This document shows, piece after piece, positions 13,791 through 18,516 of a stretch of DNA of 21,038 nt. Source of the DNA: a virus; IMG/VR virus record IMGVR_UViG_3300010318_000075, positions 1 through 21,038 of that record, one strand, 5' to 3'. The notes beneath the pieces are model-generated. The model saw only the letters and a program-made list of their open reading frames with translations. It was not told the origin of the DNA and did not search any database. A program made the position numbers and the translations under genes. Each line of letters starts with the position of its first letter. Position 1 is the stretch's first letter.

Positions 13791-14594
13791 TTATTGTTTA
13801 ACCCACCCATATTTTTTATATGCTGGATAGTTAACTGGTTTAATTTGCTTTGTTATATTATCTTTTTGTATTGTAATTGTAGTGTCAAGATTGTATCTAA
13901 ATTTATTAGCACACTTTCTAGTACAAAATCTTTTTCTTTTATCTTTTGAATGCATTAATTTCTTACAACCACAGCACACAATAATGTGCTCTTTAGGCAT
14001 TAAATCAACCCTATTTTTAAGTTTCTTTTCTTTTTTAGGTGTAATTATTTTACACTTAACTACTTTACAAGATTCTTTGCGTGATATCTTATCAAGTTTT
14101 AGTTTTAAGTTATCCCAATTAATGACTCTACCTTCTAGCCATCCATTAGGTATAATCTCATCTATAGATATTTTCTTGCTAATCTTTAAGTCAGGGTTAA
14201 AAATCCACTTTGTATTCCATTGCGGATTTTTTTCACCAATTAGTTGATTAGAATAAAAAATAGAAAGTTGCTGTTTTAAACTTTCATAAGTTCTCGAATT
14301 AAATTTTACACGTTGCTGTGTATTGCTACTACAATTAGCCATCATAACATATGCTTTAAGCAGTTTATAAAATGCACTTTTAACTGACTCATACATTTTT
14401 ACTAAAAGTAAATGGCAGATATAATGTTCTCTTGCTGTTAAATTTATAAGATTGTTGCTATTATCCAAACCACCTAAGCATCTTGGTAAAATGTGATGAC
14501 GCTCATAATATCCGTTTGGTGGATTTATTTTTCTAAACTCAATTATTTGTCTATACCATTTATGGTATTTGGTTGTACCTTCTAAGCTGTTCAT
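13791..14594 (-). CDS. HNH homing endonuclease with C-terminal zinc-finger-like region
   Basis: A 267-aa probable freestanding homing endonuclease. The N-terminal HNH motif is ERHHILPRCLGGLDNSNN (His33, His34) followed by NLTAREHYICHLLL. A DNA-binding segment of the GEKNPQWNTKWIFNP / IIPNGWLEGR type follows (about residues 130-175), and then a C-terminal Cys cluster (CCGC...FCTRKCANKF). It lies between tRNA-His and tRNA-Arg with no intron around it, as expected for endonucleases that spread into tRNA arrays. The start is five bases after ACTAAATA, so it may be transcribed late. Confidence 0.88.
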   Translation of the reverse strand: MNSLEGTTKYHKWYRQIIEFRKINPPNGYYERHHILPRCLGGLDNSNNLINLTAREHYICHLLLVKMYESVKSAFYKLLKAYVMMANCSSNTQQRVKFNSRTYESLKQQLSIFYSNQLIGEKNPQWNTKWIFNPDLKISKKISIDEIIPNGWLEGRVINWDNLKLKLDKISRKESCKVVKCKIITPKKEKKLKNRVDLMPKEHIIVCCGCKKLMHSKDKRKRFCTRKCANKFRYNLDTTITIQKDNITKQIKPVNYPAYKKYGWVKQ

Positions 14595-16606: not shown

Positions 16607-16709
16607 TGGTAGGAGTGGTGGGAATCGAACCCACATTACGCCGGCTTATCTGGCCGGTGCTGTACAAGATTATAAGTCCTGCCCTAAGGCCAATATTAGC
16701 AACACTCCC
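16607..16709 (-). tRNA. tRNA-Ile(UAU) with 30-base variable region
   Basis: Acceptor GGGAGTG/CACTCCT, A73, CCA; canonical loop CAGGA-CTTATAA-TCTTG gives UAU. A 30-base variable region contains a strong hairpin, CCGGC-CAGATAA-GCCGG, itself shaped like an anticodon arm (5 bp, 7-base loop). Alternative reading: this hairpin is the anticodon arm (GAU with A33) and the D loop holds an insertion. Confidence 0.75.
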
Positions 16710-17272
16710 GCAGCATAAAAATTATTGAAGGTTTCAACGACTCCTACAAACGTATTCTGTATTTTCTAGAACGCCTATTCGGCAACGGCATACAGAATTC
16801 TTTAGCCGAAAGTGGTCGCCGGGTTAACTCGTAATTATTCCTCTCTCTCCCGTCTGATGGGATACAAACGATACTTCATACGCCGGCCATTTAGAAATTA
16901 ATGTGGGTGAGATTCCTGACTACTCACAAGTTACATTCACGCTATGTTATTCAGTCACTACCTAATAGGGTAATTACTCCTATTATTACTAGTAGAGAGG
17001 GTTGGTTGCCTCCAAGACAATACAGCTATCAGTATAAAAATACGATTTGTTGTCTTCTTACGTCACTCAGAGTTGTACGACTCTGGCTATTTTAACCTTA
17101 CACAGCGATGAACTCTTCAACCTGCTTCACATCTTTTCAGATGTTACACAGTACATTATGGGCTAGCGACCCATTATTCTGTCACCACGAATTCAAAAAA
17201 TTTCAAAGAACTATCAGATTTTTAAATGTAGATGCTTTTTCTATTCTATCAACTTATTTTTTTAACGAAATA
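16710..17272 (-). ncRNA. Candidate large structured noncoding RNA (~560 nt)
   Basis: This stretch between tRNA-Ile(UAU) and tRNA-Thr(CGU) has no convincing gene but many helices: 16754-16762 with 16790-16798 (9 bp perfect), 16907-16911/16923-16927, 16964-16969/16979-16984, 17014-17020/17050-17056 enclosing a GTAT-AAAA-ATAC hairpin, 17068-17073/17080-17085, 17129-17134/17139-17144, and 17058-17062-type small hairpins such as ATGGG/CCCAT at 17058-17074. TTACACAG is repeated at 17098 and 17144, flanking a hairpin. It looks less AT-rich than its surroundings. Size and position beside phage tRNAs recall the ROOL and GOLLD RNA classes, but I cannot confirm a match. Strand assumed from the tRNAs. 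Confidence 0.55.
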
Positions 17273-17348
17273 TGGAGGTCATAGTCGGAATTGAACCAAC
17301 AACCTGCACATTACGAAAGTGCTACTCTACCAATTGAGTTATATGACC
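17273..17348 (-). tRNA. tRNA-Thr(CGU)
   Basis: Acceptor GGTCATA/TATGACC, T73, CCA; anticodon arm GCACT-TTCGTAA-TGTGC (one U-U) gives CGU. D loop AATTGGTA and T loop TTCAATT are canonical. Third Thr isoacceptor in the window. Confidence 0.9.
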
Positions 17349-17730: not shown

Positions 17731-17824
17731 TGGCGGAAGACTGTGGACTTGCACCACATGACTATTATTTGTAGTCACATTTCGTTTAGCAAACGAATCC
17801 AGCAACTTTGCTGATTAATCTTCC
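17731..17824 (-). tRNA. tRNA-Ser(GCU), class II
   Basis: Acceptor GGAAGAT/GTCTTCC, G73, CCA; anticodon arm TTCGT-TTGCTAA-ACGAA gives GCU. A proper long variable arm with TGACTA/TAGTCA is present, as expected for Ser. D loop AAAGTT with T loop TGCAAGT is the A18-G55 type. Its 5' ten bases overlap the endonuclease gene. Confidence 0.88.
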
Positions 17825-18432
17825 AACTTACTAATAAAATCTTTTCTCCATACTATGAGTTTCTCAGGAAAGGCACCCCACTTTGCTCTATCTAAATCAG
17901 TCTCGTAGCCTTTTACCTCAATGTATGAATTCCACTCGACAACAAAAAAATCAGGCTGATATGTCGAATCTCTACCATCCGGTTTAATATAATTAAAACG
18001 TTTTTTATTACGGCTCCACGTCACACCGATACTGTCCAAATATCTCGCAGCTTTAAGTTCCCACGTTCCGTCGACTTTAATTTTACCTGCAATAGCTGAA
18101 TTGTACTCATATTTTTTACACCGGCCACATGTTGACTCCCACCCGCTCATATAAAGTTCTTTTTTCTTTTTAGAAATACTCTGTCTATATTCATCAGAGT
18201 ATTTTTTTCTCGGCTTATGAAGCCCGAGACGCTTTGTTTTGTTGTATGTTTCTCTCGCTTGCGCTACTCGAGTATCCTCCTTAGTGAGACCTTTATTCCA
18301 TGGAATGCGGCCTTTTTTTGCACCACAAGATCTTTTTCTCCTTTTAGGGTTGCTTTCACATGAAATTTCATGCGCTACAAGACCTCCCCTATTGGCAACG
18401 ACTCTATTACAAAACATGCATTTAAAACTCAT
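17815..18432 (-). CDS. Zinc finger/NUMOD/PD-(D/E)XK homing endonuclease, 205 aa
   Basis: A mosaic mobile endonuclease. Residues 5-25 form a C2HC-type zinc finger (Cys5, Cys8, His21, Cys25). A NUMOD3-like segment follows (KGRIPWNKGLTKEDTR, then YSDEYRQSISKKKK), then a Cys pair, and a PD-(D/E)XK nuclease core: WELKAARYLDSIGVTWSR, Pro160-Asp161 in YQPDFF, and Glu172-Val-Lys174 in YIEVKG. It probably cleaves tRNA-gene DNA to spread itself, as freestanding enzymes in phage tRNA arrays do. The ATG at 18430-18432 is chosen since a longer frame would start inside tRNA-Pro. The gene ends within tRNA-Ser. Confidence 0.85.
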   Translation of the reverse strand: MSFKCMFCNRVVANRGGLVAHEISCESNPKRRKRSCGAKKGRIPWNKGLTKEDTRVAQARETYNKTKRLGLHKPRKKYSDEYRQSISKKKKELYMSGWESTCGRCKKYEYNSAIAGKIKVDGTWELKAARYLDSIGVTWSRNKKRFNYIKPDGRDSTYQPDFFVVEWNSYIEVKGYETDLDRAKWGAFPEKLIVWRKDFISKLED

Positions 18433-18439
18433 ACTAACA

Positions 18440-18516
18440 TGGTAGCGTAGGCGAGAATCGAACTCGCGACTTCTTGCTCCCAAAGCAAGCGCTCTACCAA
18501 GCTGAGCTACTACACT
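18440..18516 (-). tRNA. tRNA-Pro(UGG)
   Basis: Acceptor AGTGTAG/CTACGCT, A73, CCA; anticodon arm CTTGC-TTTGGGA-GCAAG gives UGG. D arm GCTCAGCTTGGTAGAGC and T loop TTCGATT are canonical. Confidence 0.92.

Follow-up and report, generated by a model that had tools for sequence, protein, structure and literature searches.

In 2025, RNA-only quaternary structures were demonstrated for OLE, ROOL, and GOLLD and described as a first among natural RNAs; what these RNAs do is poorly understood (PMC12286853). The cage that ROOL forms is homo-oligomeric and contains kissing loops (PMC12286853). manA was proposed in 2010 as a cis-regulatory riboswitch candidate (PMC2864571), and its function is still regarded as ill defined (PMC10832533). 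We analyzed a 21,038-nucleotide stretch of phage DNA (the window) in which a first-pass annotation, made from the sequence alone, had placed a candidate large structured RNA of 563 nt inside a tRNA array and had considered it either a diverged ROOL or GOLLD member or a new class. A structured RNA is present there, as covariation among its homologues demonstrates. It lies on the minus strand and spans ~300 nt at about 16,895-17,195, roughly half of the length proposed, so that extent, limits, and strand all had to be corrected.

Covariance model R1 matched the minus strand at 16,889-17,221, flanks included, with 298.6 bits. About 28 distinct homologues were identified in other phages. Sensitive blastn gave matches to the central part of the region in 15 Lak megaphage genomes (MK250015-MK250029, ~540 kb) and in a 735-kb uncultured phage that has been deposited twice, and degenerate DNA patterns built from the conserved core recovered more homologues from IMG/VR phages and from bacterial MAG bins (three contigs, L036, L037, and L040). 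Pattern matches without the rest of the RNA were excluded (L035, L038, and L039 from MAGs, and L028), and the resulting sequence alignment, A2, has 27 rows. The pattern search leaned on conserved letters and missed more distant members, and the conservation of GUGACGUAAGAA and CAAAUCG is therefore partly due to selection; the Lak and 735-kb phages were recovered by blastn independently of the patterns. One copy per record was found by R1 in 23 phage records and likewise in the 15 Lak records, and one record whose start falls inside the RNA gave only split pieces. Among 149 Bacteroidales genomes there was a single clear match, the seed itself. We found no earlier description of this RNA in the open-access literature; it may have been described elsewhere.

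The absence of a convincing gene, noted in the first-pass annotation, was borne out by the 27 homologues, in which 151 of 161 indels have lengths not divisible by three and sense-strand open runs are short. An RNA on the plus strand was rejected, given its weaker fold and the position of a 64-aa plus-strand ORF where indels break any frame. A 63-pair structure was read from the alignment, and 94.6% of its 1,690 cells form standard pairs in the 27 sequences, with double-sided changes in 47 of the 63 pairs. The covariation score was 0.653, compared with 0.216 ± 0.010 after shuffling and 0.09-0.13 when partners were slid by 1-3 columns. The comparison of homologues for covarying pairs that had been recommended for this region thus gave a strong signal. 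Fold energy was far less informative: single-sequence z scores for the 563 nt were -1.6 on the minus strand and -0.95 on the plus strand, and the z score of the core, about -2, is reached by 15% of other window stretches. Since these energies are only mildly better than those of shuffled sequences, the local helices listed earlier prove nothing by themselves, and it is covariation, not fold energy, that settles the reality of the structured RNA. Lack of conservation, lack of covariation, or a coding signal had been named as grounds for abandoning the proposal; the homologues are conserved, their pairs covary, and no coding signal is present. That this is a functional RNA is, in our judgment, practically certain.

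The conserved RNA (about 16,895-17,195, minus strand) is closed by P1 and reads, from 5' to 3', P1; P2/P2b; P10; P3 enclosing P4, P5/P6, P7, and P8/P9; P12; and P1'. In the window, the P1 5' strand GUGG (17,185-17,188) pairs with CCAC (16,903-16,906), and in several relatives P1 is perfect and long (9-14 bp). P1 varies too much in sequence to be aligned and was therefore tested separately: each RNA's own ends pair better, over up to 14 bp, than ends exchanged between phages (0 of 5,000 permutations). The P2/P2b arm (17,151-17,185) carries an internal loop with GAAUAA opposite UAA, a motif also found in the manA 5' arm, and is followed by P10 (17,130-17,143), a hairpin with a GNRA tetraloop that verifies one of the tetraloop hairpins seen previously. 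The long-range helix P3a/P3b (17,103-17,094 with 16,956-16,944) encloses the central domain (16,944-17,103) and repeats the GAAUAA/UAA internal loop of P2/P2b with the strands exchanged. The "flanking repeat" of the earlier reading is probably the duplicated GTGAC(A/T)GAATAA near 17,174 and 16,947, whose copies would probably be the GAAUAA strands of these two equivalent internal loops. Within the central domain lie P4 (17,068-17,085; loop core GUAC at 17,075-17,078), P5 (7 bp, strongly covarying) with the inner P6 (together 17,014-17,056, preceded by the conserved GUGACGUAAGAA), P7 (16,996-17,013), and P8 with P9 (16,958-16,995), the last having a 9-nt loop (16,970-16,978) with the palindrome UAAUUA (16,971-16,976). 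The P12 hairpin (16,907-16,927) has the conserved loop UAGUCAGGAAU, a motif as in the manA 3' hairpin. All of these features are on the minus strand. A lower AT content of the region had also been remarked on, and the difference is marginal (GC 37.7% vs 35.5% for the window; rank 311 of 410).

Between this RNA and the next tRNA lies a second structured element (16,718-16,892, minus strand), conserved only in close relatives of the window. The 9-bp perfect helix that had been counted toward the large RNA (ATTCTGTAT/ATACAGAAT, about 16,754-16,762 with 16,790-16,798) does exist and belongs to this second element, not to the ~300-nt RNA. Treating the whole 563 nt as a single RNA was rejected because its 3' third is clade specific. 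A candidate pseudoknot, UUCGGC with GCCGAA, occurs in the second element, where relatives show little variation. In L012 and L022 the 3' flanking hairpin has a CCA-like end, which hinted at a tRNA-like domain; L015 and L027 lack this end, and the idea was discarded.

P4 and P9 are candidate symmetric kissing loops. The P4 core is GGCC (14 sequences), GUAC (7), GGUC (3), GCGC (2), or GGCU (1), self-complementary in 27 of 27 when G-U pairs are counted; the P9 core is AAUU, AGCU, GAUC, CAUG, or ACGU, with single cases of GGCU and UGCU. Taking both loops together, all but one of 108 cells (99.1%) preserve core self-complementarity, compared with 73.9 ± 2.6% after shuffling, and cells with double changes number 27, compared with 7.5 ± 2.1. 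On a tree built without the P4 and P9 core columns, the core changed at least 10 times in P4 and at least eight times in P9; L006 and L007, which this tree places as close sisters, have GUAC and GCGC, respectively. The central 6 nt of the 9-nt P9 loop form a self-complementary stretch in 21 of 27 sequences (4.9% for random letters); in the other six the loop is not palindromic across the full 6 nt, and in L017 the 4-nt core is broken as well. The central bases are adjacent in the chain, which prevents them from pairing in cis, and pairing between the P4 and P9 loops of one molecule was ruled out because their cores are not complementary to each other, which leaves symmetric pairing between copies as the simplest interpretation. 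Loop symmetry thus suggests symmetric kissing between RNA copies, and the same covarying-palindrome argument, applied to OLE L9.3 and GOLLD L21a, has cryo-EM support (PMC12286853). Self-assembly of the RNA appears likely from these patterns, and two isologous contacts per monomer may allow a two-contact dimer, or rings or cages.

The partner of a self-complementary core may instead be another RNA or a protein. The RNA would then be a standalone monomer, for example a decoy, with its palindromic loops serving as protein or antisense binding sites. In trans-acting RNAs, loops are often exposed binding sites, and the conserved single-stranded GUGACGUAAGAA and CAAAUCG suggest a binding partner. 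A binding site would be expected to keep its letters, however, whereas these cores changed repeatedly and kept their self-complementarity, and we consider the monomer unlikely.

The RNA lies between two same-strand tRNA genes, tRNA-Thr (CGT) upstream (17,273-17,348) and a tRNA with a long variable arm downstream (16,610-16,709; Rfam tRNA, 39.5 bits), in an array of >20 tRNAs, all on the minus strand. A same-strand tRNA was present within 1 kb in 22 of 29 loci (window included) and no tRNA within 1 kb in the remaining seven; the homologue loci examined contained no tRNA on the opposite strand. Often <250 nt separate the RNA from the next tRNA, which leaves no protein gene at such loci to be controlled in cis. 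A boxA-like sequence, GUUCUUUGAAA, precedes P2 by 26 nt (17,201-17,211, minus strand) and may be an antitermination site. Such sequences (GUUCUUUGAAA/GAUCUUUGAAA) occur 20-31 nt before P2 in 11 of 27 homologues, compared with 0.14 expected from mononucleotide shuffles. Antitermination of the rRNA type would fit an untranslated transcript. In L011, L012, L015, L020, and L027 the boxA-like site is immediately preceded by a small hairpin (AGAGC...GCTC), an order that recalls nut-type antitermination signals. A promoter scan returned promoter-like sites at chance level, and a terminator scan returned an excess mostly on the plus strand that includes the RNA's own hairpins.

Several neighbors of the RNA were recorded in their own right. 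In the window (16,610-16,709, minus strand) and in L008, L011, L012, L015, L016, L020, L022, and L027, the tRNA 3' of the RNA (92-100 nt) combines the anticodon UAU (Ile) with a body that has a long variable arm. Long variable arms in bacteria are usual for Leu, Ser, and Tyr tRNAs, which makes the charging of this tRNA of interest. Homing or HNH-type endonuclease genes lie inside the tRNA array of the window at 13,791-14,594 (phrog_655) and 17,815-18,483 (phrog_15137), both on the minus strand. Just 3' of the RNA, L005 and L025 share a conserved frame of ~10 codons with an in-frame TAG (ATG-A.A-CAC-TAG-GTT-AA.-...-GTT-CCA-CC.-TAA); the two phages also encode a CTA-anticodon tRNA, and the frame is possibly read through by TAG recoding. 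L013 and L026 have in common a second element about 50-250 nt 3' of the RNA (GGAATACC.AGATGCC ... GACGGCATACC), for which Rfam gave no match above the gathering cut-off.

A manA-type cis-acting leader or riboswitch controlling the next gene would account for ends that resemble those of a riboswitch candidate (PMC2864571) and for the start codons found within about 100 nt 3' of the RNA in L011 and L021. It is an improbable reading: the next gene is mostly a same-strand tRNA, commonly at the short distance given above, the downstream feature varies between phages, the closing helix P1 makes the molecule self-contained, and the palindromic loops would be left unexplained. A ribozyme or processing element that matures the tRNA array transcript would suit a compact multi-helix fold among same-strand tRNAs, but no ribozyme, RNase P, or intron family matched, seven of 29 loci lack a tRNA within 1 kb, and there is one copy per genome whatever the array size; we rate it very improbable. 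Chance structure in a noncoding spacer, to which the barely unusual fold energy of the window might point, is refuted by overwhelming covariation and by conservation across distant large phages and has next to no probability left.

As a whole, the explanation that we favor, and hold with reasonable confidence, is that this phage RNA stands alone, forms homo-oligomers, belongs to an enlarged sister class of manA that in large phages fills the niche of ROOL and GOLLD, and would support phage translation. A noncoding RNA of ~300 nt would be transcribed with the tRNA array, its ends closed on themselves by a helix, and the boxA-like site would let RNA polymerase transcribe the untranslated stretch. 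Copies would then join through the symmetric kissing loops P4 and P9 into dimers or into larger rings or cages. The assembly might support phage translation by binding tRNAs, ribosomes, or a translation factor or by sheltering them, a service conjectured from the company of tRNAs and of tmRNA in relatives and the weakest step of the scheme. A standalone trans-acting RNA is very likely, and the role in translation is doubtful.

The search of the window against known families at loose thresholds that had been advised gave no Rfam match to ROOL, GOLLD, RNase P, or an intron; no ribozyme family in Rfam matched the RNA, and neither ARAGORN nor Rfam detected a tmRNA in it, standard or permuted, with a tRNA-like domain and a tag reading frame. 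In this region the only hit was a sub-threshold one to manA (RF01745) on the minus strand at 16,900-17,207, with 25.7 bits (E = 1.2e-4) by cmscan and 28.5 bits in a whole-window search, compared with a gathering cut-off of 55.2 bits. Homologues scored 12-25 bits against the manA model, true manA in cyanophages scored 123-184 bits, and the manA and R1 models find each other only weakly. Both RNAs occur in phages and have in common the P1 closing ends, the 5' arm GUGACUGAAUAA-stem-UAAGGU, and the 3' hairpin GGUA..CAG.AAUCC (P12). The middle of the new RNA is larger and unlike that of manA (P3-P9, with two palindromic loops): the manA middle domain, with its GGUGGU and ACCA elements and model hairpins, is absent, and the central model region aligns poorly, with the covarying P3-P9 in its place. 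By the manA definition, the new RNA is not a member. Neighborhoods differ too, since marine manA loci lie near tRNAs in five of 58 cases (3.7 expected), with no general enrichment, compared with 22 of 29 for the new RNA.

Scanning for the 5' motif common to both RNAs yielded at least 120 loci, of which at least 105 are manA by the GGUGGU/ACCA signature. L111, inside a tRNA array, scored 51.8 bits with manA, just below the cut-off, and 38.3 bits with R1, and is a natural intermediate between the two. RNAs with manA-like ends but different middles were seen in L111 (501-674, minus strand), L129, L101, L142 (1,452-1,629, minus strand), L160 (1,962-2,140, plus strand), and L182 (1-151, minus strand); those of L101, L111, and L129 are inside tRNA arrays, and those of L142 and L182 are on contigs with tmRNA. 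In a Bifidobacterium megaplasmid, manA, tmRNA, and a tRNA array lie near one another (PMC10832533). From the manA-like ends and the intermediate L111, we read the new RNA as a large sister class of manA and conclude that the ends of the two have a common ancestry, the middle having been exchanged or expanded. More tentatively, and with the odds somewhat against it, very large phages could encode in their tRNA islands a new class of natural RNA that self-assembles and that belongs with manA to one superfamily serving translation; the members of this superfamily, from phages and mobile elements, would share their ends and have interchangeable middles, and manA would be trans-acting and not a riboswitch. 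The link makes a trans-acting role of manA worth asking about.

Among other described RNAs, the HIV-1 dimer initiation loop has 9 nt, with a central 6-nt palindrome flanked by 2 nt on the 5' side and 1 nt on the 3' side; the geometry of the P9 loop is alike, as an analogy only, with no relation implied. ROOL (RF03087) is likewise an ornately folded phage RNA near tRNA islands, but it measures about 570-660 nt, compared with about 300 nt here, and has no Rfam match to the new RNA. None was found in 20 phage records carrying the new RNA and none in the window record, and the single ROOL match lay on a different contig of one MAG bin. GOLLD (RF02032) occupies the same niche, and its covarying palindromic loop L21a is a symmetric bridge (PMC12286853). 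It differs in sequence and size (model of 416 positions, many members >800 nt) and by the lack of an Rfam match, and it was not found in these phages in an RF02032 search run without a positive control. A diverged ROOL or GOLLD member is thus not what the window contains, whereas a new class in their niche is supported, one that fits no Rfam family, covaries strongly, and has manA-like ends and palindromic kissing-loop candidates. OLE is a bacterial, not a phage, RNA and has no sequence match to the new RNA. Its loop L9.3 carries a tetranucleotide palindrome that switches among GGCC, GAUC, and AGCU, which was taken as evidence of a dimer contact (PMC12286853). A shorter candidate, of ~300 nt, with two separately covarying symmetric contacts would offer an easy test of whether phages commonly make such assemblies. 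The mark of the ornate homo-oligomeric RNAs, covarying self-complementary loops able to pair only in trans, is found in the new RNA as well.
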